64,000 nt of DNA, from the NCBI GenBank assembly GCA_949294195.1, contig CASFGK010000008.1, positions 164,658 through 228,657 of the forward strand. The letters run 5' to 3'. Origin of the DNA: an uncultured Bacteroidales bacterium (lineage in GTDB: Bacteria; Bacteroidota; Bacteroidia; Bacteroidales; UBA932). The position numbers were made by a program, and so were the translations under genes. The notes beneath the pieces were generated by a model. It worked only from the letters and a program-made list of their open reading frames with translations, was not told where the DNA came from and did not search any database. This document shows, piece after piece, positions 20,463-51,431 of this stretch; position 1 is the stretch's first letter; every line of letters starts with the position of its first letter.

Positions 20463-20539
20463 TATGGGTCCGCATTCTGCCGGCAATTGTGCCGAATGAC
20501 GGGAAAAACCGTGTTTCATGCACATATGGGGGCTGCCAG

Positions 20540-20594
20540 TATACCTTTTTGGTACGATTGTATACTTTTAAAATGTCCCCATACGATAATTTTG
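20540..20594 (+). promoter_or_regulatory. PUL promoter A: tandem 21-bp-period operator plus -7 box
   Basis: TATACCTTTTT (20540) and TATACTTTTAA (20561) are direct repeats with a 21-bp period. The second starts 26 bp before the -7 box TAATTTTG (20587-20594). There is no normal -33 TTTG, which suits an activator-dependent promoter. The same layout recurs at 43096-43150 and, on the minus strand, at 38970-38916. The likely activator is the hybrid two-component regulator at 38979-43019. This appears to be the only promoter for 20630-36826. Confidence 0.75.
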
Positions 20595-20629
20595 TACCGC
20601 TTAAAAACGACTAGTAACCGAATCAAGTA

Positions 20630-22804
20630 ATGACCGCCATCACCAAAACGGCTGCAGTTGCATTCGCTGCAGTTCTCATGTTTCTTTTGTCACAGCCTGT
20701 ACCGGCAGCTTCAGAAAGAGCCGGAGAGAAGGAATATGCCGCAATTGTAAATACATTGATCGGAACCGAAGGTACGGGGCTGAAATCGGGATATCTTTAC
20801 CCCGGAGCTACATACCCTTTCGGCATGGTACAGTTCACACCGACGTATTTTGCCAGACGCGGCGGGTTTGTCATAAACCAGTTGAGTGGAGCAGGATGCA
20901 GGCACATGGGCAATTTCCCTACTCTTCCCTTGGCAGGCGGACTGGATGAGTCTCCTGTCGGCCTGTTCGGCAACAGGGTCGGGATCACCGGCGAGAAAGG
21001 TCACGCCGGATATTATGAGGCAGTAGTGGACGGAAGTGTCAAAGCCGCTCTTTCCGTCACGCCCAGGACCGGCATGGCAAGATATGAGTTCCCGGAAGGG
21101 GATTCCGGTACAGTGATAATAGGTGCAGGTCATGCCGCCACTCCTATTACGCTGGCGGCAATAGCCGTTACAGGACCTTCGGGCTGTGAAGGCTATGCGG
21201 AAGGCGGCAATTTCTGCGGCATCAGGACCCCTTACAGAGTGTATTTTGTCGCGGAGTTCGACATGGAGGCCTACGAAACCGGAATATGGAAAGGCGACAA
21301 GCTGACCAGAGGCGGACGTTTTGCGGAAGGGGAGAAATCCGGAGTGTATTTCACTTTCGATTTGAAAGAAGGCAGAACCCTGCAGTACAAGATAGGTGTG
21401 TCATACGTGTCTGTGGAAAACGCACGGGAAAATCTCAGGACGGAAAACCCCGGATGGTCTTTCACTTCTGTAAAAGAAGCGGCGGAGGCTGCATGGAACG
21501 GCTGTCTCGGAAAGATAGAAGTCAAGGGCACAGATCCTCTCAGGGAAATGCAGTTCTATACACATCTGTACCGATCCCTGGTTCATCCGAACATCTGCAG
21601 CGATGTCAACGGGGAGTATATGGGAGCCGATAACAAAGTCCATAAGAGCAGCGACGTGCATTATACTTCGTTCAGCAACTGGGATACCTACAGGACACAG
21701 ATACAGCTGCTTGCCATGCTTGAACCGGATGTCGCGTCAGCGGTGGTAAGGTCGCACCGGGATTTTGCCCTGGAGGCCGGGGGAGCTTTCCCGCGCTGGG
21801 TAATGGCAAATGTAGAGACCGGAGTAATGCAGGGAGACCCTACGCCTGTCCTGATATCCAACGCATGGGCTTTCGGGGCCAGGGATTATGATCCGCTACC
21901 TGTATTCGAACTGATGAAGAACAACGCTGAAATACCGGGTCTTGAATGTCAGGGAATAGAAGCAAGGCCAGGCTTGCGGCAGTATAAGGAAAAAGGATGG
22001 TGGAATGCATCCGAGCATCTGGAATACAGCACATCGGATTTTGCCATAGCCAAGTTTGCCCTGTATGCCTGCGGAGACGAATTTTCCGACTGGTATTATT
22101 CGTCCAGGGCGCAGTGGTGGAAGAACCTGTTCAACCCTGAGACAGGGTGGCTCCAGTCCAGAAATGCCGACGGCTCGTGGAAACCGTTGGGTGAAGACTG
22201 GCGGGAGTCCACATATACAAATTATTTCTGGATGGTTCCTTTCAACCTCGGCGGGCTGATAGAAAAGGCCGGAGGACCCGGTGCCGCGGAAGACAGACTC
22301 GACAGTCTCTTTACACGGCTGGACGCAAACTATGTCCAGACCTGGTATGCCTGCGGCAACGAACCCAGCTTCCAGATACCGTGGGTCTACAATTGGGTCG
22401 GACGTCCGGACAAGGCCTCGTCGGTCATAAACAGAGTGCTCAACGACCATTATTCGGCTGCTCCAGACGGACTTCCGGGCAATGACGACCTCGGGACGAT
22501 GGGAGCATGGTATGTATTCGCCTGCATGGGCATGTATCCTATGATTCCCGGTATCGGAGGTTTTGCCTTGAACACACCGGTGTTCGAGAACATTGTAATC
22601 CATCTGGGGAACGGCGATCTTGTGATTTCCGGAGGATCTGAAACAAGGATCTATACCAAGTCGCTGGAAATCGACGGAAAACGTCATGATGCGGCATGGG
22701 TGTACTGGAAAGACATCTGTGACGGAGCCGTGATGCAGTACACTGCGACGGAAAGACCTTCCGGGAAATGGGGGAAGGAGATACTTCCTCCGTCTTTTGA
22801 ATAA
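20630..22804 (+). CDS. Glycoside hydrolase family 92 alpha-mannosidase
   Basis: This 724-residue secreted enzyme has a signal peptide of about 26 residues (MLMFLLSQPVPAA-type core). The GH92 beta-sandwich opens with NTLIGTEGTG...YPGATYPFGMVQ and includes INQLSGAGCRHMGN. The catalytic (alpha/alpha)6 domain carries FSNWDTYRTQ and GNDDLGTMGAWYVFACMGMYP, where GH92 enzymes have their Ca2+- and acid/base-bearing loops. GH92 enzymes are Ca2+-dependent exo-alpha-mannosidases acting on alpha-1,2, -1,3, -1,4 or -1,6 linkages. It is the first gene of the nine-gene PUL operon under promoter A. GVVN/ANPFIGT-type openings vary in this family, so linkage specificity cannot be given. Confidence 0.93.
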   Translation: MTAITKTAAVAFAAVLMFLLSQPVPAASERAGEKEYAAIVNTLIGTEGTGLKSGYLYPGATYPFGMVQFTPTYFARRGGFVINQLSGAGCRHMGNFPTLPLAGGLDESPVGLFGNRVGITGEKGHAGYYEAVVDGSVKAALSVTPRTGMARYEFPEGDSGTVIIGAGHAATPITLAAIAVTGPSGCEGYAEGGNFCGIRTPYRVYFVAEFDMEAYETGIWKGDKLTRGGRFAEGEKSGVYFTFDLKEGRTLQYKIGVSYVSVENARENLRTENPGWSFTSVKEAAEAAWNGCLGKIEVKGTDPLREMQFYTHLYRSLVHPNICSDVNGEYMGADNKVHKSSDVHYTSFSNWDTYRTQIQLLAMLEPDVASAVVRSHRDFALEAGGAFPRWVMANVETGVMQGDPTPVLISNAWAFGARDYDPLPVFELMKNNAEIPGLECQGIEARPGLRQYKEKGWWNASEHLEYSTSDFAIAKFALYACGDEFSDWYYSSRAQWWKNLFNPETGWLQSRNADGSWKPLGEDWRESTYTNYFWMVPFNLGGLIEKAGGPGAAEDRLDSLFTRLDANYVQTWYACGNEPSFQIPWVYNWVGRPDKASSVINRVLNDHYSAAPDGLPGNDDLGTMGAWYVFACMGMYPMIPGIGGFALNTPVFENIVIHLGNGDLVISGGSETRIYTKSLEIDGKRHDAAWVYWKDICDGAVMQYTATERPSGKWGKEILPPSFE

Positions 22805-22824
22805 CAGATGAAATCCTAATAATC

Positions 22825-24213
22825 ATGAAATATATGAAACGGCTTACTTTATTTCTCATTTCCCTTGTTTCCTGTGTTGCGGTATCTGCCCAGACCGCGG
22901 TGCAGTTCAAGGATGGCGACCGTGCTGTGTTCGTAGGTAACAGCATTACTGACGGAGGTCATTACCATTCCTACATATGGCTCTATTACATGACCAGATT
23001 CCCGTATATGGATCTGAACGTGTCTAATGCAGGGATCGGCGGCAATACGGCGGCGGACATTTACGAGAGACTCGACGGGGATGTCTTCAGCAGGAAACCT
23101 ACCTATCTTACTCTCACTTTCGGAATGAATGATACCGGTTATTTTGAATACAACCAGGAAGGTGCCGACAAGTTTGGTGAGAAGAAATACAAGGAGTGCA
23201 TCGCCAATTTCGACAAGATAGAAAAACGTCTTCTGGCTCTCGACGGTGTCCATATCGTCATGATCGGCGGGTCTCCTTACGATGAGACAGCCAAAATCAG
23301 AGACAATGTCCCTTTCAAAGGCAAGAATGCCGTAATGGACAGGGTAGTAGCATATCAGAAGGCTGCTGCCGGGAGAAACGGATGGGATTTTGTCGATTTC
23401 AGCAAACCGATGCTTGAAATCGGGCAGAAATTACAGGAGTCGGATTCTACTTTCTCTCTTTCAATGGGAGACCGTATCCATCCTGACAATGACGGGCACA
23501 TGGTGATGGCTTACCTGTTTCTGAAGGCTCAGGGGCTTGCCGGGAAGAAAGTAGCGGATATCGAGCTGGATGCAATGACGGCAAGTGTCGTAAAATCAGA
23601 GAATTGCGCTATATCTGACGTGCAGAAGGACCGCAAGGGGATATCCTTCGATTATCTGGCGGAGTCTCTTCCGTACCCTCTTGATACGGTTGCCAGAGGA
23701 TTCGGGTCGCACAGGGCACAGGCGGGAGCTTTGAAAATGGTCCCTTTCATGGAGGAGATGAACCAGGAGGTTCTGAAAGTCACCGGGCTTGAGGGCGACT
23801 ACAGTCTCTATATCGACGGACAGCTTATGGGGACATGGAGCGGCGACGAGTTTGCCGAAGGTCTCAACATGGCTGAAATGACATGGGCGCCGCAGTACCA
23901 GCAGGCACTGCAGGTGATGTATCTCAACGAGTGGAGATGGGAGATAGAAAGGAATTTCAGGGATTTCGCATGGATGCAGTACGGATTCATGAAGCCGAAA
24001 GGCCTTTTGGATGCCAATGACCGCAAGGCCGTGGAAGCCATTGACAAATACAAGACACAGGATATCTGGGCCGGTATCCACAGGGATACCTACGCAAAGC
24101 TCATGCTTAAGGACGTCAGGGAGACCCGCTTGCAGGAAATGGATATGCTTACTGATAGGATATATCAGATAAACAAGCCTGTAACCCACAGGATTTCAAT
24201 CAGGAAGAAATAA
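22825..24213 (+). CDS. SGNH/GDSL-family hydrolase (probable carbohydrate esterase)
   Basis: This 462-residue secreted protein has a signal peptide ending VSA-QT. It has all SGNH blocks: Ser40 in VFVGNSITDGG, Gly in NAGIGGNTAAD, Asn in TFGMNDTG, and Asp216/His219 in GDRIHPDNDGH. The C-terminal 200 residues form an extra domain (IDGQLMGTWSGDEF) seen in PUL-associated GDSL enzymes. Such enzymes usually remove acetyl or other esters from glycans. It lies 20 bp behind GH92 and 3 bp before the GH38-like gene, in the same operon. The first codon could also be the Met at residue 4. Confidence 0.88.
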   Translation: MKYMKRLTLFLISLVSCVAVSAQTAVQFKDGDRAVFVGNSITDGGHYHSYIWLYYMTRFPYMDLNVSNAGIGGNTAADIYERLDGDVFSRKPTYLTLTFGMNDTGYFEYNQEGADKFGEKKYKECIANFDKIEKRLLALDGVHIVMIGGSPYDETAKIRDNVPFKGKNAVMDRVVAYQKAAAGRNGWDFVDFSKPMLEIGQKLQESDSTFSLSMGDRIHPDNDGHMVMAYLFLKAQGLAGKKVADIELDAMTASVVKSENCAISDVQKDRKGISFDYLAESLPYPLDTVARGFGSHRAQAGALKMVPFMEEMNQEVLKVTGLEGDYSLYIDGQLMGTWSGDEFAEGLNMAEMTWAPQYQQALQVMYLNEWRWEIERNFRDFAWMQYGFMKPKGLLDANDRKAVEAIDKYKTQDIWAGIHRDTYAKLMLKDVRETRLQEMDMLTDRIYQINKPVTHRISIRKK

Positions 24214-24216
24214 ATT

Positions 24217-26757
24217 ATGCACGGAAGGTTCATCATATCGGTTTTGACGGCCGGACTGCTGTGCACAAGTATTTCAGCACAGGAGAACATTTATTTCGTG
24301 GACGGTTTCCACGGCGGTGTTTACGGACACTATCCGATGAAGACATATACCGACTATATGTCCGGCCTGCTTGAGAAATATCCCCAGTGGAGCATGTGTC
24401 TGGAGATTGAACCGGAGACATGGGACACAGTGAAGGTAAAGACCCCCGAAGCATACAGAAGATTCAGCGCATGGACTTCAACCGACAGAGTGGAATTTAC
24501 GAATCCGGCTTATGCCCAGCCTTATATGTACAATATTTCCGGAGAAAGCATCATCCGGCAGCTGGGCTACGGCATGAAGAAAATCAACAGTCATTTCCCT
24601 GATGTGGAGTTCTGTACTTATGCAGTCGAGGAGCCTTGCTTTACAAGCGCCCTGCCTCAGATTCTCAGGCAGTTCGGTTTCAGCTATGCATCGCTCAAAT
24701 GCCCTAACACCTGCTGGGGAGGATATTCGGCTCCGTACGGAGGCCAGATAGTGGACTGGATCGGTCCTGACGGTACTCCGATACGGACTTCCCCCCGCTA
24801 TGAGTGCGAGGCCCTGCAGCCTGGCAGTGTATGGCAGACGACAGCCTGGGGCAACCGGGATGACTATATCGCCGCGTGCCGTAAGGCGGGGATAAAGGAT
24901 ATTGCGGGTATGTGCTATCAGGATGCGGGCTGGACTTACGGACCTTGGATAGGTTACGGGGATAAGGTCAGGAACAATTCCGAGTATGTCACCTGGAGGG
25001 AATATTTTGAAAAGACGGCCGGAGAGCCGGCGGAAGACTATGTGTTTTCGCAGGAGGATGTAAGGCCGGCGCTCATGTGGGGAAGCCAGGTGCTGCAGAC
25101 AATCGCCAGACAGGTGCGTCATACGGAAAATACGATAGTCCAGACAGAGAAGGCGGGCGTGATTGCCTCTCTGGAGAACGGCTACAGGTATGACCGGTCG
25201 CTTGTCGACGAGGCATGGCGCACCCTTATGCTTGCGCAGCACCATGATTCCTGGATAGTTCCGTACAACCGGCTCAACGAGAAGGGGACATGGGCGGACA
25301 ATATCGCATTGTGGACAAAATCATCGGATGCCATTTGCGGCAATATCCTCGATGGAATATATACGTCTTTTTCAAAGTCTCCGGAACGTGGAAACAGGAC
25401 TTCGGTTAAAGTGTTCAATACTTCCGGAACCGCCAGAACCGAATTCGTAAGCATCGTGCTTCCTGATGAATATATGGAATGCGGCGCTGTCACTGTCACG
25501 GGATCCGACAGGGGAAAGTGCCAGTCTGTCCTGGACAGGGCTGACGGCGTCCCTGTACTGACTTTCAAAGTCAGCGTGCCGGCATTCGGATACACTACCT
25601 GCAGCATAGAGAAGGTTTTTGATGGAAGAGAGGTCCCGGTCAGCTCTGAAGTGTATGAAAAAGGAGATGTGACCGTGGAGAACGGACTTTACAGGCTTGT
25701 TTTCGATGCATCCAGAGGCGGGGTGATAAAGAGCCTTGTTGTAAAGGATCAGGATTCACGCGAATATATCGACAGAAAGAGCCGTGTGGCATTCAATGAA
25801 CTCCGCGGCTTTTTCTATGACGAGGGACGTTTCCGCTCTTCGGCCGACAACCCTGCTGCAGTCGAGGTCAGGGACAACGGTCCGGTCAAGACTGTCACAA
25901 TCCGCGGTGAAATAGCATCTGTGCCGTTCACTCAGACAGTCACACTGCGTGACGGTGACAGGAAAATCGACTGCAGCCTGAAAATCATGTGGGAGGATAA
26001 TGTCCATATAGGACAATACGCCCAGGAGAACGGGTTTGCCAGCATGAGAAGGGCGTGCTATGATGACCGCTACAAGCTGAATGTGCTTTTCCCGGTGGCT
26101 CTGGACAGACCGCAGCTATACAAGGACGCGCCTTTTGACGTGTGCCGGAGCCGTCTGGAAGATACTTTCTTTGAAACATGGGACGATATCAAGCACAATG
26201 TCATCCTGCATTGGGTGGACCTTGCAGGGGCGGAAGACGGAAGCTCTCTGGCCCTGCTGTCGGATCACACTACTTCGTATTCGTACGGTTCAGGCTTCCC
26301 TCTGGGACTTACCGTACAGTATTCCGGCGGAGGATTGTGGGGAAGAGACTACAGAATAGGATATCCGACAGAAGTACACTATGCCCTGATCCCTCATACC
26401 GGGGAATGGGACAGTGCCGGAATCCATGAAGAAAGCGTGGCGTGGAACGAGCCTCTGCTGTGCTGTCTCTCCGATAGCAGGAAAGGCTCTGTCTCTCTGG
26501 TGGATCTGACAGGAACAGGGTATGAACTTTCAGCTGCATATATGACAGATGAGGGATTGGTGGTCAGACTGTTCAACGCATCCGGAGATGACTCTCCCGC
26601 TAAAGTCAGGTTTGGCTTTGACGTAGAGTCTGCAGAGGAAACCGACCTCAGAGGCAATGCCATAAGGACTCTGCCGGCAGTCCGGAGGAAAGGTGCTGCA
26701 GAAATGGAGGTATCGATGCCGAGGTTCGGTATCAGGACATACCGTATCGAATTGTAA
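24217..26757 (+). CDS. Divergent GH38-like alpha-mannosidase
   Basis: This 846-residue secreted protein has a signal peptide ending ISA-QE. It shows the GH38 layout: N-terminal catalytic domain, a three-helix region with LAQHHDSWIVP (His342/His343, like the metal-binding HHD of GH38), and the beta-rich C-terminal domain (VFNTSGTARTEFV, then ENGLYRLVFD). The usual N-terminal HxD metal motif is replaced by VDGFHGGVYGHYP (residues 28-40). In an ungapped reading Gly34 sits where the metal-binding Asp belongs. The usual nucleophile loop may be AVEEPCF (Glu138/Glu139), also altered. It is therefore assigned to the fold with confidence but to alpha-mannosidase activity only tentatively. It lies between the SGNH and second GH92 genes. 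Confidence 0.72.
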   Translation: MHGRFIISVLTAGLLCTSISAQENIYFVDGFHGGVYGHYPMKTYTDYMSGLLEKYPQWSMCLEIEPETWDTVKVKTPEAYRRFSAWTSTDRVEFTNPAYAQPYMYNISGESIIRQLGYGMKKINSHFPDVEFCTYAVEEPCFTSALPQILRQFGFSYASLKCPNTCWGGYSAPYGGQIVDWIGPDGTPIRTSPRYECEALQPGSVWQTTAWGNRDDYIAACRKAGIKDIAGMCYQDAGWTYGPWIGYGDKVRNNSEYVTWREYFEKTAGEPAEDYVFSQEDVRPALMWGSQVLQTIARQVRHTENTIVQTEKAGVIASLENGYRYDRSLVDEAWRTLMLAQHHDSWIVPYNRLNEKGTWADNIALWTKSSDAICGNILDGIYTSFSKSPERGNRTSVKVFNTSGTARTEFVSIVLPDEYMECGAVTVTGSDRGKCQSVLDRADGVPVLTFKVSVPAFGYTTCSIEKVFDGREVPVSSEVYEKGDVTVENGLYRLVFDASRGGVIKSLVVKDQDSREYIDRKSRVAFNELRGFFYDEGRFRSSADNPAAVEVRDNGPVKTVTIRGEIASVPFTQTVTLRDGDRKIDCSLKIMWEDNVHIGQYAQENGFASMRRACYDDRYKLNVLFPVALDRPQLYKDAPFDVCRSRLEDTFFETWDDIKHNVILHWVDLAGAEDGSSLALLSDHTTSYSYGSGFPLGLTVQYSGGGLWGRDYRIGYPTEVHYALIPHTGEWDSAGIHEESVAWNEPLLCCLSDSRKGSVSLVDLTGTGYELSAAYMTDEGLVVRLFNASGDDSPAKVRFGFDVESAEETDLRGNAIRTLPAVRRKGAAEMEVSMPRFGIRTYRIEL

Positions 26758-26810
26758 CTTGATATTATTAATCCTGAGCGTAGAGAAGGAATTGTATAAA
26801 TCAGAAAACA

Positions 26811-29141
26811 ATGAAAATTACCAGATTGATTATCCTATCCATGGCCGTTCTTGCCGCTGCGGGGTGCTCGGGGCAGGCAACTGACGGATTTTCTCCGGCA
26901 TCGTATGTCAATCCGTTCATAGGAGCAAGCACCAGTGTCGGTGATGCCGGTGTCTATCACGGACTCGGGAAGACTTTTCCCGGTGCAACGGTTCCGTACG
27001 GTATGGTGCAGGTGAGCCCGAATACCATCACGGGCGGCGACAATGCGAGCGGCTACAGTTACGAGCACAAGACAATAGAAGGTTTTGCGTTTACCCAGAT
27101 GAGCGGAGTCGGCTGGTTCGGTGATCTCGGGAATTTCCTTGTCATGCCTACGACCGGCAAGCTGAAGACGGTTGCCGGGAAAGAAGACGGCAGCATATCC
27201 GGCTGGCGTTCGGCGTATGACAAGAACACGGAGACTGCCAGAGCAGGATACTATATGGCCGAACTGACTGATTACGGTATAAAGGTGGAAAGTTCCGCGA
27301 CTCCTCACTGCGGGATTCTCCGGATGACTTATCCTGAAAACAGTTGTTCAAGGATACAGATCGACCTGGCAAGAAGAGTCGGCGGAACATCGGAGTCCCA
27401 GTATGTCAAAGTACTTGATGACAGGACCATTACCGGATGGATGAAATGTACCCCGGAAACAGGAGGATGGGGCAACGGTGACGGCAATGCCCGGTATACG
27501 GTGTATTTTTATGCCGAGTTCAGCCGTCCTCTTGACGACTACGGCTTCTGGAGTGCCGATATTCCTTCCGACTGGGTACGTAAAAAGGACGAAGTCGTGA
27601 GCCTGCCTTACCTGCGGCGCGTAAGCCAGTCCGAAATAATAAGGAATGTCCCTGAAATGCAGGGGAAGCACATAGGCTTTTTCACGGAATTTCCGACTGA
27701 AGAAAACGAACAGGTGACACTCAAGGTCGGAATTTCGTTTGTGGACATGGACGGAGCAAGGAAAAATTTCGAAGCGGAAATCAGAGACAGGGATTTCGAT
27801 CAGGTCTGTCAGGATGCTTTCGGAATGTGGAATGAGGAGTTGGGCCGGATAAAGGTTTCCGGAGGTTCGGAGCAGGACAGGACAGTCTTCTATACAGCCC
27901 TTTACCACTCTCTGATAGATCCGAGAATCTATACGGATACGGACGGAAGATATGTCGGCGGAGACTACAGGATCCATCAGACGGACGGGACGTTTGTCAA
28001 GAGGACGATTTTCAGCGGATGGGACACTTTCCGCAGCCTGATGCCTCTCCAGACCATTATCAATCCTGATGTGGTGAACGATCTTGTGAATTCTCTTGTC
28101 ACTATGGCAGACCAGAGCGGAAGGGAATATTTCGAGAGATGGGAATTCCTCAATTCGTATTCCGGATGCATGATCGGCAATCCGGCGCTGTCAGTCCTTG
28201 CCGATGCTTATGTAAAGGGTATAAGGGGATATGATGTGCAGAAAGCGTATGAATATGCTGTCAACAGTTCAGGAAAGTTCGGCAACTGGCCTCTGGGATG
28301 GACTCCTGGCGGACTGTGCATTTCCCAGACTCTGGAATACGGCTACTTCGACTGGTGTGTGGCGGTGCTTGCGGAGCAGCTCGGCAAAACAAGTGATGCA
28401 GAACGCTTCAGGCAGCAGGGCCAGGCATACAGGAACATATTCGATGCGGGGAAAGGATGGTTCAGGCCGCGTAATGAAGACGGCAGCTGGGCGGAATGGC
28501 CTGAAAATGCCAGAACTACCGAGTGGTATGGCTGTATCGAGTGCAATCCTTACCAGCAGGGATGGTTCGTGCCTCATGATGTAGACGGGATGGTGGAGCT
28601 GATGGGCGGCAGGGAAAAAGTGTTGGCTGATCTGGACAGCTTGTTTGAAAAGACTCCGTCAGACATGATGTGGAACCAGTATTACAACCATGCAAACGAG
28701 CCGGTACACTTCGTGCCGTTCCTTTTCAACCGTCTCGGAGAGCCGTGGAAGACACAGAAATGGACGCGTTTCATCTGTTCGCATGCCTATGCTGACGGAG
28801 TGAACGGCCTTGTGGGAAATGACGATGCCGGCCAGATGTCTGCCTGGTATGTTCTGGCCGCTTCCGGCATCCATCCGTCCTGTCCCGGTGATACAAGGAT
28901 GGAGATAACAAGTCCTGTGTTCGACAGGGTGGAGTTCGCTCTTGACGGGAATTATGCGTCAGGAAAGAAATTTACCGTCATAGCGCATGACAACAGTCCG
29001 GAAAACATCTACATCCGCAAGGCTCTTCTGGACGGAGAACCGCTGGATGTGCCGTATATAGATTTTGAAGACATAAAGGCTGGGAAAACCCTTGAACTGT
29101 ATATGGGAAACGCTCCTGTACGGTTTTCGGAAATGAAATAA
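26811..29141 (+). CDS. Glycoside hydrolase family 92 lipoprotein
   Basis: This is a 776-residue GH92 with the lipobox LAAAGC (Cys19), so it is membrane-anchored, unlike the first GH92 of the operon. The opening ASYVNPFIGASTSVGD...FPGATVPYGMVQVSP is classic, as are GFAFTQMSGVGWFGDLGN, FSGWDTFRSLMPLQ and GNDDAGQMSAWYVLA. The intact family signatures indicate an active Ca2+-dependent exo-alpha-mannosidase. The two GH92 enzymes differ clearly in sequence, which suggests different linkages or positions in the glycan. It sits 44 bp before susC. Confidence 0.93.
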   Translation: MKITRLIILSMAVLAAAGCSGQATDGFSPASYVNPFIGASTSVGDAGVYHGLGKTFPGATVPYGMVQVSPNTITGGDNASGYSYEHKTIEGFAFTQMSGVGWFGDLGNFLVMPTTGKLKTVAGKEDGSISGWRSAYDKNTETARAGYYMAELTDYGIKVESSATPHCGILRMTYPENSCSRIQIDLARRVGGTSESQYVKVLDDRTITGWMKCTPETGGWGNGDGNARYTVYFYAEFSRPLDDYGFWSADIPSDWVRKKDEVVSLPYLRRVSQSEIIRNVPEMQGKHIGFFTEFPTEENEQVTLKVGISFVDMDGARKNFEAEIRDRDFDQVCQDAFGMWNEELGRIKVSGGSEQDRTVFYTALYHSLIDPRIYTDTDGRYVGGDYRIHQTDGTFVKRTIFSGWDTFRSLMPLQTIINPDVVNDLVNSLVTMADQSGREYFERWEFLNSYSGCMIGNPALSVLADAYVKGIRGYDVQKAYEYAVNSSGKFGNWPLGWTPGGLCISQTLEYGYFDWCVAVLAEQLGKTSDAERFRQQGQAYRNIFDAGKGWFRPRNEDGSWAEWPENARTTEWYGCIECNPYQQGWFVPHDVDGMVELMGGREKVLADLDSLFEKTPSDMMWNQYYNHANEPVHFVPFLFNRLGEPWKTQKWTRFICSHAYADGVNGLVGNDDAGQMSAWYVLAASGIHPSCPGDTRMEITSPVFDRVEFALDGNYASGKKFTVIAHDNSPENIYIRKALLDGEPLDVPYIDFEDIKAGKTLELYMGNAPVRFSEMK

Positions 29142-29185
29142 ACGAGCGACTTAACGCCAATCATTAATAACTTACTAATTATCAG

Positions 29186-32100: not shown

Positions 32101-32299
32101 TTCAGTGCTGAAAAACAGCAAGTTCGTCAAAGGTCTGAGCCTCGGGGTGACAGTCGAGAACCCTTATATTTTCACCTCTTATCCCGGATATGACCCTGAA
32201 GTGGGAGCATTCGGAAACGTGAAGACAGGTTCAGGTATCGACTACTATTCATATCCGAGACCTACTACCGTTTCGGCAAAAGTTAAAGTTACATTCTAA
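29186..32299 (+). CDS. SusC-family TonB-dependent outer-membrane transporter
   Basis: This 1037-residue receptor has a signal peptide ending LSA-QE. A carboxypeptidase-D-like regulatory domain follows (about 32-105, GSVTDETGGPLPGVVVMVKG), then the plug (about 115-225, IQIRGMGSIN...PIYVMDGI, IEVLKDAAATAMYGAKGANG) and the 22-strand barrel ending in ...TVSAKVKVTF. SusC proteins import oligosaccharides across the outer membrane with TonB energy and are lidded by SusD. Its SusD partner starts 6 bp downstream. A run of eight G bases lies in codons 74-76 and could make the gene prone to slippage. Confidence 0.97.
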   Translation: MKLSGLKKLSGLLAAALLLAAPVFDLSAQESGRVSGSVTDETGGPLPGVVVMVKGTTNGTTTDQNGEFSFSIPQGGADTVLEFSCLGMETVEIPVGQRTIFNVTMYTSSIGLDEAVAIGYGTMLRRDISSAVSSVESDALNERATSLNIMQSLAGKVAGVRSASFSGRPGGTTSIQIRGMGSINAGADPIYVMDGIVDIDPSLINPADIESIEVLKDAAATAMYGAKGANGVILVTTKAGKKGQGTVSYDGSVGVSMLNRRLDLLDANGYMELQRRAYAYSGATMPHLTTPMENLFYYQKDASGNYAYDDNGLLIASPKYNTDWQKVMTQNALVNDHSLSFTSGGEKTSIYASISYQDVEGLLRGTYSNRLNGTINVKSQITDWLDIQAVATGGSTSANNSDSENGMGQGALRNMMEMPPIVPVKYEDGTWGRKHDYPLGEEAENPLRLMENVFNIQKNNYFVMSLTANMKLYKDLTLTVKGDYQMNNGKNISYAMEKDMVQTTESNNGYATIGYSDTKNWSNEDYITWSPTFFDGKLRSSFVLGASWYYEHSESATAGAEDFFDGSFDYHNLGAGSKVQNPSSGMSQVTMNSYYFRMNHTFMDRYMLGFTFRADGSSNFGANNKFGFFPSGSAAWLISEEPFFEPAKRYLSNLKLRVSYGSVGNASIPTYQTMSQYATGTNYFAGQPNTYVVLNTMGNADLKWETSTQLNVGLDIALFNDRIELMADYYNKVTTDLLFQKQVPYTTGYSMTWTNLGKIRNTGVELTLTSHNINNRNFQWDTDLIFATNKIIVVDINGETIDLGNNCRAVEGMPWGSYFVLNRLGTWGLDEVEEAAKYGKKPGDLKFEDVNHDYVIDDNDRQYMGSGTPKGEISMVNTLSWKGFTFMLDLNCQYGATVMNITTTMMENRQLYANSPTSVLDAWTPENQNSMIAAVRRPSDTFWGENEKDSRMLYNGTFLRIRNIMLSYDFKHSVLKNSKFVKGLSLGVTVENPYIFTSYPGYDPEVGAFGNVKTGSGIDYYSYPRPTTVSAKVKVTF
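29407..29414 (+). repeat. G8 homopolymer in the susC coding region
   Basis: Eight consecutive G residues lie within codons Gln74-Gly75-Gly76-Ala77, in the regulatory domain before the plug. The length seen keeps the frame open. Loss or gain of one base would end the protein before the barrel. Confidence 0.9.
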
Positions 32300-32305
32300 T
32301 CGGAG

Positions 32306-33829: not shown

Positions 33830-33859
33830 GCTGATTATATGACCATAATTCAGAATATC

Positions 33860-35302: not shown

Positions 35303-35325
35303 AAACCATAAAAGAAAAAAGTAAA

Positions 35326-35790
35326 ATGAAAAAATATCTATTGCTGCTGTTTGCAGCGTGCAGTCTTTCCATGATGTGGTCATGCAAGGAGGTTTCGAAC
35401 CAGATGGATCCGGACTATCCTGCAGACTATGATGTCAACTATGCCCTCAGGGAAGTACTTGAGGTGGATCCCGTCAATGTCAACGGTATTGACGTCTGCC
35501 CGTATTTCGACTTCTTCGATTCGTTCCGTTTTACAATACATTACAGGGAAGGCAGGATAGCCTCCTGTGAAGTGACAAACGGCGACATACCGTTCTCTCC
35601 GTTCTCTTTCGCTGTCCCTGAAGGTGAAGTGGAGTGCTATTTCGATACGGAGAGGCTTCCGAACGCCATCCGTCTTAAAAGCACCGATGAGGTCATTGCA
35701 TATTATTCGACAGGAGAGTTCCATATGTCTTTCCAGCTCGACTGCAAGGACATAACCTACGAGTACTATTTCAAGGAAATTGCAGAATAG
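35326..35790 (+). CDS. Small PUL lipoprotein of unknown function
   Basis: This 154-residue lipoprotein has a signal peptide and lipobox ...SMMWSC. The mature part is acidic and rich in aromatic residues (DFFDSFRFTIHYREG, ITYEYYFKEI) with alternating hydrophobic residues that suggest a beta-sandwich. I do not recognise a family. It lies between the propeller lipoprotein and the DUF4961-like lipoprotein, the usual place of surface glycan-binding accessory proteins in PULs. An upstream in-frame ATG at 35299 would overlap the previous gene and spoil the signal peptide, so 35326 is preferred. Confidence 0.7.
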   Translation: MKKYLLLLFAACSLSMMWSCKEVSNQMDPDYPADYDVNYALREVLEVDPVNVNGIDVCPYFDFFDSFRFTIHYREGRIASCEVTNGDIPFSPFSFAVPEGEVECYFDTERLPNAIRLKSTDEVIAYYSTGEFHMSFQLDCKDITYEYYFKEIAE

Positions 35791-35827
35791 TCGCTTGATA
35801 CTGTAATAAATTAAAGGACATTAAGAT

Positions 35828-36826
35828 ATGAAACTACTGAAAAAATACAAGATAGCCGGAATTCTGGCCGCTGCGGCAGCTGTCATCATAGCGGCTTGCG
35901 AGATGGTCATCGAGGAGATTAATTTTCCTGAAGACGCGAAGGTCAATTCCGAGATAACCTTTACTGTAAAGCTCAAGCTTGTGACGGAGACAGATGACAA
36001 CTCGAATATGGTGTTCGCCCTTCTTGCCCCTAAGTCATGGGATATCAAGAACAATGCAAAGCTTACCCTTACCACTGAGGGCTATGCTGCCCAGGGATAT
36101 GCCGAAGTTGTGGACGAGCCGATGTCTCTCATCCCTGATTCAGAAACGGAGAAATCCACAGCGCTTTCCTATCCTGCTGCATATCAGAGCAAGATAGGGG
36201 TGATGGGGAACACAGGTCCTGTAGAGTGGACTGTTTTCAAATCCGCTTCTGTCTTCCATATCAATGACAAGGTAAGTACCGCTCCGATTTACGGTACGGT
36301 AACCATTACCCTGACTACAGGTCCGGATCCTATCAAGTTCTTCCTCGGCTGCGGATTCTGCGGTACAACATGGGGTCTTGATTCAGAGAGCGGCGAAGGC
36401 CGTTATACTCCTAACGAGACGGCAAAGATCGTTACTGTATATGGAGAAGAGGGGCAGCCTGTGCTTGACTATACTACTGTAGCTGCCGTTTCCACCACTC
36501 CGTCTACATTCAGATACGGTGATATATTTTCTGTCAACTACGAGACAGCCGGGACCGGACTTGAAGGAGAAAAGACCGTGTATATGTGCGGCAAGGCTGT
36601 ACTTGCCGACGGGACAGAAAAAGTGATGGAAGAGAAGACAGACAAGGCTCTTATGGAATATTCCGGAGAGACTACTTGCTTCAGGTATATCTACCCTAGG
36701 GACTTTTTCGGACTTCCTGCTGATGCTGAGATTTCGGAAATCTATGTATGGTTTACCAATGCAGACGGTTCGGTGGTCTCCAAAGCGGGAGAAGACGGCA
36801 CTTTGCTCAGCCAGGCTGCCGAATAG
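35828..36826 (+). CDS. DUF4961-like PUL lipoprotein
   Basis: This 332-residue lipoprotein has the lipobox AVIIAAC. Its beta-rich mature region opens EEINFPEDAKVNSEITFTV and includes FALLAPKSWDI and FFLGCGFCGTTWG. This resembles DUF4961 proteins that occur behind SusC/SusD pairs; the family name is recalled rather than tested. It is probably a surface-exposed glycan-binding or accessory protein. It is the last gene of the operon and is followed by the hairpin at 36872. Confidence 0.65.
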   Translation: MKLLKKYKIAGILAAAAAVIIAACEMVIEEINFPEDAKVNSEITFTVKLKLVTETDDNSNMVFALLAPKSWDIKNNAKLTLTTEGYAAQGYAEVVDEPMSLIPDSETEKSTALSYPAAYQSKIGVMGNTGPVEWTVFKSASVFHINDKVSTAPIYGTVTITLTTGPDPIKFFLGCGFCGTTWGLDSESGEGRYTPNETAKIVTVYGEEGQPVLDYTTVAAVSTTPSTFRYGDIFSVNYETAGTGLEGEKTVYMCGKAVLADGTEKVMEEKTDKALMEYSGETTCFRYIYPRDFFGLPADAEISEIYVWFTNADGSVVSKAGEDGTLLSQAAE

Positions 36827-36839
36827 TACCGGTGAAGAC

Positions 36840-37568: not shown

Positions 37569-37600
37569 TACGGGTTATTGGTTTTGTCGTGAGAATTAAT

Positions 37601-38887
37601 TTATTCCCCGGTATTGTCGAGGTGGCGGGTGATGTTGTTGGCAACGGCGATGGAAAGAAGCTGTATGACGCCTATTATCAGGATTGTATACCTGAGGGCG
37701 GCGACATCGGATATGAGAAGTGTTATCACTATGAACAGTCCGCATCCGAAGAACCTTCCTGCATACAGGCCCAGCTCATGGATGAAGATATATGTGTACG
37801 AACTCCGCTTTTCCTTGTTGCTTACATAGTCTATGACCCTCATCTGGATAGGGAAGTATCCCATATCCATCAGCGGTCTGGCGAGCACAAGGCAAAGCAT
37901 GAATGCGATGACTCCTGTTGCAGAGTAAAGCACGGTGTTGAATGCCCCTCCAAGAGCGAAAAGTACCAGGCCTGCCGAGAATATCCATATACGGTGCTTC
38001 GGGGCGGTGAACCTTCCCAGAAGATAAAGGACGACGGCGGATACTATCGCGCTTATGGACTGCAGTACGCCGAGAGTGGATTCATTGCCTACAAATGTCA
38101 TGACGAACATTGAAGGTGCGGTTACTATATATCCCTGGGCTATGCCTTTGAGTCCGGCAAGCCCCATCATTTTATTCCATACCCTGTTAAACTTCAGATA
38201 CAGGAATCTCCGGTTTTCCGGCTTGGGGAATGCTCCTTTGAAAAGAACGCATGAAGCCATGACGGTGAGAGCGAACACGCAAACTGTCACTATCTTGTAT
38301 GCCAGGTCGATATTTCCTCCGAGCATGCCCTTGTTCGCCGCCGCTCCCAGAAATATGCCGATTGCATAGGGGACAATCACGCCGGCCATGGTGTTGAAGA
38401 AGCTTTCAAGGCCGTAGTAGTAGTTCCTGTTGCTGTCATCCGTGGAGTTGAGGGCAAGGAAGTCCCTGTTGGCCCAGAAGAATCCGTATGACATTCCCAT
38501 TATCAGCCCGGCCAGGATTATTCCCTGAAGGCTGAGCGTTTCCAGAGACATCATTACTGCCATCGATATACCGCTGAGTATCATGCCGAAAGCATACAGA
38601 TACGTAATCCTGAGCCTTTTCATCAGGAAGCCGTTGACAAGAAAGGTCAGCGGAATTCCTGAATAGACGGCAAGCTGGTAGCCGATGACATAGGCCATTT
38701 CGGAACTGTTGCGTATTATGTATGTTCCCACGAAAAGCTCGACTACGGGGAGGACGAAAGCGTAGATCATATTGGTTATGAGCAGGACTTTCATGTTCCT
38801 CGGATGGGAACGGAAGAACCGGATTTCGGAAAAGGCTTTGCTGAACAGGCCTGTACTTGTCCTGTCTGAATTCGTAATAGCGTTCAT
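37601..38887 (-). CDS. MFS sugar transporter of the PUL
   Basis: This 428-residue inner-membrane protein has about twelve hydrophobic helices in two halves with a basic loop between them (FPKPENRRFLYLKFNRVWNK). It fits the major facilitator superfamily, in the group of sugar carriers common in Bacteroidales PULs. It probably imports released mono- or disaccharides into the cytoplasm for the GH130 enzyme. Its promoter (38916-38970, minus strand) has the same tandem operator as the main PUL operon, so it should be induced with it. The GH92 remnant follows. Confidence 0.85.
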   Translation of the reverse strand: MNAITNSDRTSTGLFSKAFSEIRFFRSHPRNMKVLLITNMIYAFVLPVVELFVGTYIIRNSSEMAYVIGYQLAVYSGIPLTFLVNGFLMKRLRITYLYAFGMILSGISMAVMMSLETLSLQGIILAGLIMGMSYGFFWANRDFLALNSTDDSNRNYYYGLESFFNTMAGVIVPYAIGIFLGAAANKGMLGGNIDLAYKIVTVCVFALTVMASCVLFKGAFPKPENRRFLYLKFNRVWNKMMGLAGLKGIAQGYIVTAPSMFVMTFVGNESTLGVLQSISAIVSAVVLYLLGRFTAPKHRIWIFSAGLVLFALGGAFNTVLYSATGVIAFMLCLVLARPLMDMGYFPIQMRVIDYVSNKEKRSSYTYIFIHELGLYAGRFFGCGLFIVITLLISDVAALRYTILIIGVIQLLSIAVANNITRHLDNTGE

Positions 38888-38915
38888 GTATTATATGGCA
38901 GATTTGTCGTTGCTG

Positions 38916-38970
38916 CAAAAGTAACTCCGGCAGACCTGCTTATGGTATCCTATTTTTTCAAATAGGTCTA
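38916..38970 (-). promoter_or_regulatory. PUL promoter C: tandem operator plus -7 box for the MFS gene
   Basis: On the minus strand TAGACCTATTT begins at 38970 and GATACCATAAG at 38949, a 21-bp period. The -7 box TACTTTTG begins at 38923, 26 bp after the second repeat. Periods and spacing are identical to promoters A and B. The repeats match the A/B motif less closely, but A-C at motif positions 4-5 is kept. Confidence 0.65.
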
Positions 38971-38978
38971 CACCGCTG

Positions 38979-41900
38979 TCAGGAATCCTGATTGCTGTCT
39001 TTTCTGAACTCTTTAGGGGACATTTTGAACTTTTCAGCGAATTCCCGGTAGAAATACGACTTGTTGTTGAATCCCGATGCGAACATCACTTCCTGGACGG
39101 TCATCCTTGTGGTCTTGAGAAGATGGGCCGCATGCTCCAGCTTGATGGAACGGATGAATTCGCTCGGAGTCTGTCCCGTAAGGCCCTTCAGCTTGCGGTA
39201 GAACTGCATTTTGCTTATGGACAGCTGTTCGCACAGCCAGTTCTGTGAAAGGTTGTCATCCGTGATGTTCCCCTCTATTGCGGAGGTGACCTTCATGAGG
39301 AATTTCTTGTCCTCCGAGTCTACTGCGGCACCTTCATAGATGTCTGTGGATGAGAGAGCCGAGTTGTAGTAGTCTTTCAGTACTGACCTGCTGTCCAGTA
39401 TGCTGTGGACGACTGCCTTGAGATGTTTCGGATGGAATGGCTTCGGAATGAATACTTCGCTTCCCATCTCGTATGTTTCGATTTCGGCTGCGATATCGGT
39501 CTTGAATGCGAGGAAGATGACAGGGATGAATTTGGTCAGCGGATTTGCCTTCAGCCACTTGAGAAGCTCGACTCCGTTCATTTCAGGCATGTTCAGGTCT
39601 GATATGATGAGGTCCGGCAGCCCGAATCTCAGTTTGTCGACGGCTATTTTCCCGTTTCCGGCAGTGATGATGTTGTATTCGTTCCCGAGAATGTCCGTTA
39701 CCAGATCCCGTATCTGGGCTTCGTCATCTATTATCATTACATTCTTCTTGTTGGCCGCAACTGTCTCCTGTACCTGGGCTTCGGTAATTTCCCGGTCTTC
39801 TCCGTTTTCCTTGTCCTCCGGCATTTCCCAGCACCGGGCGTTTTCTGCCCCGGACCTGTCTATCCTGTCTTCGCTTACAGGAGGGAAGACAAGGGTGAAC
39901 ATGGTGAACTTGCCCTGTTCGCTCTCTACCTTTATGGTGCCGGAGAGCATCTTCACCAGGCTGTTGACCAGTGCCATGCCTATTCCGTTCCTGTATATCC
40001 TTCCCTTACTTGCCTGGTATTCGTAGTTGTCCAGAATCATGAACCTGTCGAACACAAGGTCTATATGCTCAGGCTTGATTCCTTTTCCTGAATTCTTGAC
40101 GGAAATGACAAGTCCCTGCCGGCCGTTTTCCGCACTGACATGTATCCATCCCCCGTCAGGAGTGTATTTGTACGCGTTGGAAACAAGGTTGTAGAAAATC
40201 TTTTCCATTGCACCCTGGTCGGTTACTACAGTCATGTCAGGGGCGATTTCCGATTCTATGCTTATCTGCTTTTCTTCGTTCAGTTCACAGAAATTGGAAA
40301 TGATGGTATTCAGCAGGGCGGAAATGTCCACTTTCCCGAATACCGGCTTTTCGTTTCCGGTATCCGCTTTCCGGAAATCGATAAGTTCCTGGATGAGACG
40401 CAGCATCCTTTCGGCGTTGCTGAGTATTATCTGATGGTATTTCTCCACCTTTGCCGGCAGGTGGAATTCATTCCGTATCTGTTCTATCGGCCCGCAGATA
40501 AGGGTAAGAGGGGTGGTGAATTCATGTGCTATGTTGGTGAAGAACCGCAGTTTGGCCTCGTATGTATCTGAAAGCTGCTTGCGCCGGAGCTCCTCCAGTT
40601 CCAGCTTGTGCTTCTGACGCATTCGGAAACTGATCATGAACTGGACTGAAAGTACGGCCATGCAGACAAGCAGCGAGTATGCAATGTATGCCCATACCGA
40701 TTTCCACCACGGCGGCGTGATTCTGATTCCGAGCTCTGTCGTATTGTCTTTCCATACCTTGTCTCCGTTCGTGCTTCTTACCTGGAACAGATATCTGCCA
40801 GGAGGGACGTTTGTGAATGACGCCGTGTGGTCCGTCTCCACATTTACCCAGCCGTTGTTGAAGCCTTTCAGACGGTATGAATATTCACAGTTGCTGTTGT
40901 TGATGTATTCAAGGGCAGTAAAGTGGACATTGAAGAAATTCTCATTGTATCTGAGGGTGATTTCTTCATTGCTGTTCAGAAGGTCAATGTCCGGAGCCTG
41001 ACTGAGTGTCACTCTGCTTATCAGGACTTCAGGAGAGAAATCCCTTGCCCGTATGTCTGCGGGGTCGAACCAGTTGAATCCGTCTATCCCTCCGAAGTAG
41101 ATGTAGCCGTCCTTGTCCTTGTAGCCTGCACCGTCGGAGTATTCGTTGTTCTGGAGTTTGCTGTCATTGTAGAAGTTGGTCACTTCCCCTGTTCCCGTGT
41201 TGAAGAATGACAGCCCGTGGCTTGTGCTGAGCCACAGATTCCCGTCATCGTCTTCCTCTATTCCGTGGATAGTATTGTTGTGCAGCACATCCTTTGTCGT
41301 ATAGGATATGAAACTGTATTTCCCGTCCGGATTGCGGACAAGTCTGTTGAGACCGTAGCCTGTCCCTATCCACAGAGTTGAGTCACTGCCGATATGGAGA
41401 GACAGTATCTCGTTGCTGCTCAGAGGGTTGTCTGATGTTGTGGTAAAACATGCAATGGAGTCTGTCCGGATGTCGAGCCGGTTGAGTCCTCCCCTTGTCC
41501 CTATCCACAGGATACTGTCTCCTTCCATGACCAGAGGCTGGACCATGTTGTTCGAGATGGAAGTGGAGTCACCGGCGCTTCTTTTGTAGAAACGGATATC
41601 CTTTATTTCGTATTGTCCTTCATGCGTCTTTTCCGTCTGGAGTCTGACCAGCCCGTATCCGAATGTGCCTATCCATATGCAGCCGTTTGCCTTGTCCGGG
41701 AGGAAACTGTAAACGGATCCGAACATCTTGCCCTCGGGCGGCACCAAATGCATTGCGGTTCCTGAATCCCCACTGATTATGTCAAAACCTTTCCCGTCAT
41801 GACCTACAAGAATGTCACCGTTTTCCATGGCATCGAGGGCAAATACGGAAGGGCTGCCGAGCTCATTCAGATATTGCTTTGCGGTATGTCCGTTTCTGAT

Positions 41901-43019
41901 TTTGAAGATTCCTTCTCCTTTGGTCCCGACGTACAGATCGTCACCGCTTTTGCAGAATGCCCGGACCGGATAGCGTGTCCTGCTGTCCGAAATCTGGCTG
42001 TATGTCATTTTCTCCATGTGGAAGGGATCGTCATACATTGCCCATAGGCCTTGTCCGTCAGTGCCTGCCCATAGAATGTCCTGTGTCCCGTAGTACAGAT
42101 ACAATATATTGGCGTCAGAGACACCCATGTCCCGGAATATCCATCCTGTTTCCGGATCCAGGAACCGTATCCCGCTGGAAAGGAATCCGATGGCTACAGT
42201 CCCGTTCCCGGTTTCCGCCAGAGCGGTAACTTTGTCTTTGACAGGAATGTCAGCCAGATAGGACAGGGATGCGGTCGTTTCATCATAGCGGTACAGTCTG
42301 TTGCCGGATGATACGATATACAGGCAGCGGCCGCATTTGTATGAAGAGGATATCCGTTCGGTATAGTCCAGTCTTTTCGTGCCTGTGATGTCGATCTGGC
42401 CGTTTCCGGAAAAGGTATAGCTTGCCGTATAGGCCGTCCCGTCCTGTGAGATGAGAAGCAGCCTGCTGTCCCCCAGACAGTGCAGACCTGAGATTCCGGA
42501 TGTGTTGAACCCGGGGATGTTCACCGCCTGCATCATTGAAGTGCTTTCGTTGAAATATGCTATACCCCAGTCGCGCGCGGAGCAGAAAATCCTGCCGGAT
42601 CCGGAAACGGATATGCTGAATGTCTTTTCATCCGAAGGTACTTTGTGTTCATAACCGAGGTAGAAACGGTCGATTCGGGCTGTTTTGGCATCGAGCCTGT
42701 TTATTCCGTAGTCCGTGGCAATCCACATTATGCCGTCCTTCTGCTCGATTATGGACCGTATGGTGTTGTTGGATATGGAATTGCTGTCGGCCGGGTCATG
42801 CATCCACACCCAGAATTCGTTGGAATCGTATACGTTGAGTCCGTCCCAGGTCCCGACCCACAGGCGTCCGAGGGAGTCCTGGCTTATGCAGGTGATGCTG
42901 CTGCTTGACAGACCGTCCATATTGGTCTTTATATAGGTGCTGGAAGAAGCACGGGAATCATGTGAGGGGAAAAGTATGCAGCAGGCAGTCAGTATGGCGG
43001 ATAATATCAGGTGTCGCAT
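38979..43019 (-). CDS. Hybrid two-component system regulator (HTCS)
   Basis: This is a 1346-residue one-protein signalling system. In order: signal peptide (about 1-24); periplasmic two-component propeller repeats (to about 660, many DSLGRLWVGT-type units); Y_Y_Y domain (to about 755); membrane helix (about 768-790); HisKA with His832 in FFTNIAHEFTTPL; HATPase (NLVSNAYKYTPDGG, RNGIGMALV); receiver domain with phospho-acceptor Asp1141 in IISDLNMPEMNG; and an AraC-type helix-turn-helix at the C-terminus. In the receiver, the usual switch Thr is Ala1171 (FLAFK instead of LLTAK). Such regulators sense a glycan fragment in the periplasm and activate PUL promoters, here most likely A, B and C. Confidence 0.95.
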   Translation of the reverse strand: MRHLILSAILTACCILFPSHDSRASSSTYIKTNMDGLSSSSITCISQDSLGRLWVGTWDGLNVYDSNEFWVWMHDPADSNSISNNTIRSIIEQKDGIMWIATDYGINRLDAKTARIDRFYLGYEHKVPSDEKTFSISVSGSGRIFCSARDWGIAYFNESTSMMQAVNIPGFNTSGISGLHCLGDSRLLLISQDGTAYTASYTFSGNGQIDITGTKRLDYTERISSSYKCGRCLYIVSSGNRLYRYDETTASLSYLADIPVKDKVTALAETGNGTVAIGFLSSGIRFLDPETGWIFRDMGVSDANILYLYYGTQDILWAGTDGQGLWAMYDDPFHMEKMTYSQISDSRTRYPVRAFCKSGDDLYVGTKGEGIFKIRNGHTAKQYLNELGSPSVFALDAMENGDILVGHDGKGFDIISGDSGTAMHLVPPEGKMFGSVYSFLPDKANGCIWIGTFGYGLVRLQTEKTHEGQYEIKDIRFYKRSAGDSTSISNNMVQPLVMEGDSILWIGTRGGLNRLDIRTDSIACFTTTSDNPLSSNEILSLHIGSDSTLWIGTGYGLNRLVRNPDGKYSFISYTTKDVLHNNTIHGIEEDDDGNLWLSTSHGLSFFNTGTGEVTNFYNDSKLQNNEYSDGAGYKDKDGYIYFGGIDGFNWFDPADIRARDFSPEVLISRVTLSQAPDIDLLNSNEEITLRYNENFFNVHFTALEYINNSNCEYSYRLKGFNNGWVNVETDHTASFTNVPPGRYLFQVRSTNGDKVWKDNTTELGIRITPPWWKSVWAYIAYSLLVCMAVLSVQFMISFRMRQKHKLELEELRRKQLSDTYEAKLRFFTNIAHEFTTPLTLICGPIEQIRNEFHLPAKVEKYHQIILSNAERMLRLIQELIDFRKADTGNEKPVFGKVDISALLNTIISNFCELNEEKQISIESEIAPDMTVVTDQGAMEKIFYNLVSNAYKYTPDGGWIHVSAENGRQGLVISVKNSGKGIKPEHIDLVFDRFMILDNYEYQASKGRIYRNGIGMALVNSLVKMLSGTIKVESEQGKFTMFTLVFPPVSEDRIDRSGAENARCWEMPEDKENGEDREITEAQVQETVAANKKNVMIIDDEAQIRDLVTDILGNEYNIITAGNGKIAVDKLRFGLPDLIISDLNMPEMNGVELLKWLKANPLTKFIPVIFLAFKTDIAAEIETYEMGSEVFIPKPFHPKHLKAVVHSILDSRSVLKDYYNSALSSTDIYEGAAVDSEDKKFLMKVTSAIEGNITDDNLSQNWLCEQLSISKMQFYRKLKGLTGQTPSEFIRSIKLEHAAHLLKTTRMTVQEVMFASGFNNKSYFYREFAEKFKMSPKEFRKDSNQDS

Positions 43020-43036
43020 GTGGCCGAATTTTTTTG

Positions 43037-43044
43037 CAAAAGTA
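43037..43044 (-). promoter_or_regulatory. -7 box for the HTCS gene
   Basis: Minus-strand TACTTTTG lies 18 bp before the HTCS ATG. With two preceding bases it reads TATACTTTTG, which also matches one operator half-site. No second half-site is found 21 bp on either side. TTTTGG upstream is 24 bp away, too far for a normal -33. Confidence 0.5.
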
Positions 43045-43095
43045 TATCAAATATTTCCATTGTAAGGCCAAAATCATTCATGATTGACACAGTAC

Positions 43096-43150
43096 TGTAC
43101 TTTTTTGAAAGGATAGTATACTGTTTCGCGACATTCCGGGATTACTTTTG
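43096..43150 (+). promoter_or_regulatory. PUL promoter B: tandem operator plus -7 box
   Basis: TGTACTTTTTT (43096) and TATACTGTTTC (43117) are 21 bp apart, and the -7 box TACTTTTG starts at 43143, 26 bp after the second repeat. There is no good -33. The box lies 56 bp before the ATG at 43206 and supports that start. Confidence 0.75.
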
Positions 43151-46032: not shown

Positions 46033-46093
46033 ATAATATATGGCTGTATTGTCAGGTGCACGGAAAAGCTGTATTTATCTTGTCTGAAAAGAT

Positions 46094-51413: not shown

Positions 51414-51431
51414 TCCCCAAGGAGATAAACA

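Follow-up and report, generated by a model that had tools for sequence, protein, structure and literature searches.

The analysed stretch (hereafter the window) comprises 64,000 nucleotides of contig CASFGK010000008.1 (GenBank assembly GCA_949294195.1) from an uncultured Bacteroidales bacterium of the UBA932 lineage. It carries a glycoside hydrolase (GH) locus with one hybrid two-component system (HTCS) regulator, and three paired sequence elements upstream of genes of this locus are the subject of the present analysis. A nine-gene operon on the forward strand (20630..36826), assigned from Pfam matches and open reading frames (ORFs), encodes GH92, a GDSL lipase-like protein, GH38, GH92, SusC, SusD, a DUF5005 protein, a small ORF and a DUF4961 protein; the small ORF (35299-35790, +) is an ORF call alone and lay outside the Pfam search. 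The reverse strand carries an MFS transporter (Pfam MFS_1; 37601..38887) and the HTCS (38979..43019), which by Pfam contains a Reg_prop propeller, Y_Y_Y, HisKA, HATPase, REC and an AraC-type helix-turn-helix domain (HTH_18). The HTCS was the sole regulator among the 37 ORFs of the window in the Pfam search. A GxGYxYP gene and a GH130 gene are present on the forward strand (43206..45943; Pfam and PDB comparison), and a terminator-like hairpin with a T run (45992..46034, +; folding against shuffles) lies between GH130 and a GH78-esterase gene. In the PDB, the GH130 protein came closest to Uhgb_MS (614.8 bits), which is listed as a mannoside synthase of mixed linkage that makes beta-1,2-mannobiose among other products (PMC8950772). 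Together with GH92 and GH38, this suggests mannan or mannoprotein as the substrate.

A preliminary description of this DNA had reported pairs of an 11-bp element with a period of 21 bp, the second copy 26 bp before a TAnnTTTG -7 box, with no normal -33 element. Reading and scanning of the sequence bore this out at all three sites. Candidate operator 1 (20539..20571, +) contains two half-sites with TATAC cores at 20540 and 20561, and the -7 box of the nine-gene operon, TAATTTTG, lies at 20587..20594 (+), 26 bp past the start of half-site 2. Candidate operator 2 (38939..38971, -; copies at 38970 and 38949) belongs to the MFS gene and starts 7 bp past the HTCS stop codon; the -7 box of this promoter is TACTTTTG (38916..38923, -). 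Candidate operator 3 (43095..43127, +; copies at 43096 and 43117) is located in the divergent gap between the HTCS and GxGYxYP genes, and the -7 box of the GxGYxYP-GH130 promoter is TACTTTTG (43143..43150, +). The period was 21 bp in 3/3 pairs and the distance from the second copy to the box was 26 bp in 3/3, with all boxes (starting at 20587, 38923 and 43143) being exact. The A-C at positions 4-5 was present in 6/6 copies, and the G said usually to precede the element in five of the six, the 43096 copy having C. The statement that five or more positions agree between copies failed at one site: agreement was 8, 8 and 4 of 11 positions, the last being that of the MFS site (5/12 with the preceding G).

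The sigma-ABfr promoters of Bacteroides are described as having a -7 TAnnTTTG and a -33 TTTG (PMC7366714). The TAnnTTTG is common to the three promoters of the window, which have an operator half-site in place of the -33 TTTG. An exact TTTG at the -33 spacing (18-22 bp from the box) was found at none of the three window sites and at none of 20 sites from relatives, described below; in two relatives (G302 and G561) a TTTG is present at 14 bp from the box.

The spaced pattern AC, 21, AC, 26, TAnnTTTG occurs three times in the window, and each time both copies differ from TATAC by at most one mismatch. In 100 dinucleotide shuffles of the window, the spaced pattern had a mean of 0.09 and a maximum of 1, and was not observed with the TATAC condition. 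As these patterns were fitted post hoc to the three sites of the window, independent evidence was sought from relatives. Across the draft genome (G000; 2,155,684 bases, 31 contigs, 88.57% complete), there were three perfect occurrences of the pattern TRKAC-16N-KATAC-21N-TAnnTTTG, each inside the window; no occurrence had a single mismatch, and six had two. At three mismatches a backwards-read control gave 75/77 matches against 43/54 for the real pattern, so only the rows with 0-2 mismatches are meaningful. A box-less pattern with up to three mismatches was not a usable test, with six matches (two being window sites, the MFS site missed) compared with 26 for the control.

Relatives were obtained by searching the HTCS in three overlapping genome samples (149 family genomes at E <= 1e-100, 57 matched; 300 genus genomes at E <= 1e-150, 30 matched; 398 family genomes at E <= 1e-150, 39 matched), and the contig regions surrounding the best matches gave 41 segments. 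These were scanned for AC-21-AC followed by a box after 25-27 bp, and the 20 sites with 21/26 spacing that were kept came from 19 of the 41 segments, representing 18 genomes. These sites precede GH130, GxGYxYP, MFS, GDSL-GH38-SusCD or SusC genes. Sites within genes (G561 31642, G217 31188, G290 12014), with 25-bp spacing (G333a 37033, G124 34450) or with 27-bp spacing (G099 10342) were left out. The resulting sequence-only profile (R1) contained no letters of the window.

When applied to the draft genome, R1 recovered candidate operators 3, 2 and 1 at 33.3 bits (E 6.9e-8), 33.1 bits (E 7.8e-8) and 27.7 bits (E 4.0e-6), respectively, and the next match had 9.6 bits and an E of 2.1, with 150 of 521 first-look candidates scored. 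In a full-model scan of the window, the same three sites headed the 23 matches, the fourth (9.7 bits) being inside GH78. It is extremely improbable that the three pairs are a chance likeness of AT-rich promoter DNA. The elements are T-rich, the pattern was picked after the sites had been seen, and the MFS copies agree at 4/11 positions; against this, the genome-wide E values of the relatives-only profile range from 4e-6 to 7e-8, columns that were not selected are conserved across sites, and the shuffles gave only 0.09 per window. Chance was rejected on the shuffles, the spacing grid described below, the backwards-read pattern control and the relatives-only profile.

Across the 23 sites (20 from relatives and three from the window), the conserved columns outside the selection included G12 and A18 (22/23 each), T11 (21/23), T19 (20/23), G21 (17/23) and G at -1 (16/23). 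As these flanking columns are conserved, the predicted operator is longer than the 11-mer and reads about GTATACYWTTTTGAAAgAATAGTATACYnTTT. The 11-bp element of the preliminary description is thus real at all sites but incomplete. Both halves fit a single direct-repeat half-site of about 16 bp, roughly AATAGTATACYWTTTTG, the right flank being retained in the left copy and the left flank in the right copy. The self-complementarity of GTATAC raises the alternative of a dyad, in which two palindromic cores with inward A/T-rich arms would be bound by a symmetric dimer; the inner flanks are indeed the better conserved ones, and a 10.2-bit reverse-strand match was found at the site of one relative (G041). 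The direct alignment nevertheless matched better than the inverted one on average over the 23 sites, in the core (4.4 vs 3.7 of 6), the left flank (2.2 vs 1.2 of 5) and the right flank (3.1 vs 3.0 of 7), and the sites of AraC-type HTCSs have been published as direct repeats (PMC3878776). We regard the dyad as improbable and retain the direct repeat.

The geometry was assessed with a grid of 13 x 13 spacings that covered the 41 relative segments and the window, and 21/26 was the top cell in four of four settings. With a box of at most one mismatch and a score >= 13 there were 21 hits at 21/26 (other cells: mean 1.6, maximum 9), with an exact box and a score >= 12 there were 20 (mean 1.4, maximum 14), and the two laxer settings gave 25 against a maximum of 22 and 30 against a maximum of 20. 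Some neighbouring cells were raised as well, which probably stems from shifted T runs. Spaced trimer pairs were also sought in the regions before 31 GH130 genes, with no motif given and the window excluded. Pieces of the operator emerged, with TTG-11-TAC in 15 of the regions (2.7 expected), GTA-5-TTG in 13 (2.3 expected) and TAC-18-TAC in nine (1.4 expected). Other pairs ranked equally high, such as CTG-19-CTG (10/31), and perhaps come from closely related sequences.

Conservation at orthologous loci was in keeping with a regulon. In the genome with the most similar HTCS found (G455, 62-63% identity), R1 gave exactly three genome-wide sites at E <= 0.01, preceding GxGYxYP-GH130, MFS and GH92-GDSL-GH38-GH92, the same three transcription units as in the window; the last of these sites was absent from the profile and was found blind. 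Elsewhere, the sites precede SusCD, GH130 or MFS units. A site at E <= 0.01 was present in 14 of 15 genomes picked for a related HTCS, compared with 0/15 genomes of the same genus that lacked an HTCS match at 1e-150; more distant HTCSs do occur in some of the latter. Among genomes that gave no training site the figures were 6/7 and 0/15 (Fisher p 9e-5). In three of those six (G290, G196, G309) the site precedes SusC-like genes and in two (G002, G099) GH130, and the sixth is the genome of the window itself. Ten matches were inspected for context, and six had a window-like gene downstream. None of the other four (G290 C180, G333 C22:45693, G217 C17, G099 C216), which are the second matches in G290, G099 and G217 and the third in G333, was seen to be followed by a window-like gene within the flank examined. 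The sole miss of the 15, G041, has a 16.5-bit site in front of a GDSL-GH38-GH92-SusCD operon, spaced exactly 21/26, and was dropped as a true exception once this SusCD promoter site was seen.

To relate the sites to a regulator, the 80 best loci from titled genome records were searched with R1; five of these (L197, L199, L207, L209, L215) apparently coincide with segments already used. A match at E < 0.01 was found in 15 of the 80, including loci of Proteiniphilum, Phocaeicola faecicola, Dysgonomonas and two Flavobacterium species. When the 76 scorable DNA-binding domains were ranked by similarity to that of the window, sites were present in 13 of the 14 most similar and in 0/62 of the rest (10/11 rather than 13/14 without the three loci whose sites had fed the profile). 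The fourteenth locus, L199, begins past the place of its site, and the positive loci L201 and L207 have no scorable domain. The presence of the site thus tracks DNA-binding-domain similarity, and this co-occurrence ties the predicted operator to the HTCS clade. The period was 21 in 12/12 scorable sites of the named loci, with some boxes carrying one mismatch. Two tandem profile matches, with starts 108 bp apart, were seen before GH130 in Phocaeicola faecicola (L202 988-1151, +).

The sites might be genuine operators of the locus that are read by a different AraC-type regulator, as the genome has 13 AraC-type HTH_18 matches, two of them in Reg_prop HTCSs (that of the window and one on contig C16). 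The remaining 12 matches all lie outside the window. The second Reg_prop HTCS has SusC/SusD genes of its own nearby, and its contig carries none of the seven profile matches with E up to 10. Across genomes, the site goes with the HTCS clade and with the DNA-binding domain of that clade, and we consider a different regulator to be quite unlikely. By eye, the SusC promoter beside the second Reg_prop HTCS (L282, G000 C16, about 8800-9120, -) shows a different repeat, TGTCYTTNYTG, with copies offset by 21 bp; it stands about 37 bp from the box, one helical turn further out, and this observation is anecdotal.

The GH78-esterase and the HTCS gene itself had been placed outside the regulon, and the data are consistent with both placements. 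No R1 match above 5 bits was found upstream of either gene on its own strand in the window scan, and no box within one mismatch was found in the 293 bp before GH78. The hairpin past GH130 (GGCCC..GGGCC with T6; -17 kcal/mol, z -1.8, with 8/200 shuffles folding as well) probably separates the GH78-esterase from the regulon; it was absent from the list of the consensus terminator scan. The HTCS gene has a probable -7 box, TACTTTTG, located by scan at 43037..43044 (-), 25 bp before the ATG and with no such operator on its strand. The only R1 matches upstream on that strand scored 5.0 bits, at the HTCS box, and 4.3 bits, on the reverse of operator 3. As operator 3 (43095-43127) lies upstream of the HTCS, in the gap between the two divergent genes, autoregulation through it may occur. 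It may also exist in G576 and G333, because the HTCS there lies downstream of the GH130 genes on the same strand.

Taken together, it is very likely that the three pairs are operators of the HTCS at 38979-43019, bound by a dimer as direct repeats 21 bp apart that replace -33 recognition. The assignment of the pairs to a local HTCS regulon, as proposed in the preliminary description, is supported by the observed sites and spacing, their conservation and genomic specificity, and their co-occurrence with the HTCS clade. Of the outcomes which that description named as refuting it, neither a spread of the spaced motif to many unrelated promoters of the genome nor a lack of conservation at related loci was observed. 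Several observations weigh against this interpretation. The training sites were chosen by a window-derived consensus that required AC, so A-C is invariant across the 23 sites by construction, and two blind sites (L204 9861 and L207) carry AT in one copy. The box distance is not strict, being 26 bp in five, 27 bp in six and 28 bp in one of the 15 sites in named loci (three unscored). The half-site cores are near-palindromic, and the margin for direct over inverted recognition is narrow. The cut between 13/14 and 0/62 was drawn after the ranking had been seen, at a 101-bit tie, and phylogeny and locus content co-vary with the DNA-binding domain. The profile search scored 150/521 first-look candidates, in a draft genome of 88.6% completeness. 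No site was kept from 22 of the 41 relative segments, some of which end near the HTCS, and the pattern scan, as distinct from the profile, found no convincing site in G091 and G124, which have GH130 beside the HTCS. A self-match test of 179 intergenic boxes in 63/80 HTCS loci, which in an earlier form had covered 16 boxes upstream of 53 SusC regions, gave period 21 as the highest overall (5.22); at the unrelated loci without the motif, this motif-free test had no clear peak at period 21 (5.08 vs 5.12 at period 23).

Class II AraC-type activators bind a tandem site whose promoter-proximal half overlaps the upstream promoter element. The window differs from these in its promoters, which belong to the Bacteroidetes TAnnTTTG type, and in its regulator, a hybrid sensor of the membrane. 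In B. thetaiotaomicron, motifs have been predicted for 16/36 HTCSs, all of them direct repeats with an average distance of 21 bp, and HTCS_Man-1/2/3 (BT2628, BT3302, BT3786) have two 16-bp sites with a 5-bp spacer, equal to 21 (PMC3878776). The sites in the window share the two-site direct repeat of about 21 bp with these operators, and lie at a locus where the AraC-type HTCS is beside susC/susD; the site is also conserved upstream of orthologous operons, though not in every relative, the scan having shown no convincing site in G091 and G124. The likeness to HTCS_Man is one of layout and setting, with a motif before alpha-mannan locus genes and an AraC-type HTCS near susC/susD; the window locus adds the GxGYxYP-GH130 unit and the MFS gene. 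A term search of the main text of the same paper (PMC3878776) found no fixed distance to the -7 box.

Binding, activation, signal and substrate are predictions from the sequence. The signal would be a mannose-containing oligosaccharide that binds the periplasmic propeller/Y_Y_Y sensor, upon which His832 and then Asp1141 would be phosphorylated and the AraC-type DNA-binding domain freed. Both H832 and D1141 were invariant in 12 aligned HTCSs, including that of the window. In Bacteroides HTCSs, an inhibitory contact between the REC and DNA-binding domains has been described, the loss of which permits DNA binding (PMC11253607). The two AraC-type domains of a phosphorylated HTCS dimer would then occupy both half-sites on one face of the helix, two helical turns apart. 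As the proximal half-site, 26 bp before the -7 box, stands where the -33 would be, the HTCS probably replaces -33 recognition and would recruit the polymerase in a class-II-like activation, and the promoter should be silent without it. The GH92/GH38/SusCD operon, the MFS gene and the GxGYxYP-GH130 unit would be co-induced, with the HTCS using its own promoter. As operator 2 starts just past the HTCS stop codon, it would give the MFS gene a separate inducible start.

Past the MFS gene, a short GH92 piece of 242 amino acids is present (36840-37568, -). This is probably a remnant, as G455 has a matching 762-amino-acid ORF at the corresponding place. The locus end is directly bordered by rpsL-rpsG-fusA (50511-53546, +), and relatives of the locus are also near those genes, with rpsL and rpsG at the segment edge in G455 and all three in G041. 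Further along, a 1499-amino-acid ORF (55513-60012, +) encodes an AcrB-type RND pump fused to a C-terminal outer-membrane efflux (TolC-like) domain.

The kind of control described here, HTCS direct repeats of about 21 bp, is known, and the new example is the HTCS of this probable mannan locus; no report of an operator for the HTCS of a GH130 locus was found in open-licence PubMed Central papers. Many HTCSs lack a known operator, as only 16/36 of those in B. thetaiotaomicron have predicted motifs (PMC3878776), and the present HTCS now has a predicted operator, regulon and promoter geometry across several genera. A tentative extension, which falls somewhat short of being probable, is that, all the way from Bacteroidales to Flavobacterium, this HTCS clade has kept one operator sequence and one geometry (half-sites 21 bp apart, the -7 box 26-27 bp away, no -33), with the HTCS dimer supplying the missing -33 contact. 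If true, this geometry could be a rule for reading HTCS regulons directly from sequence. The findings suggest that an HTCS can take over the role of the -33 element, and this may be relevant to the difficulty of finding -33 motifs in this phylum.

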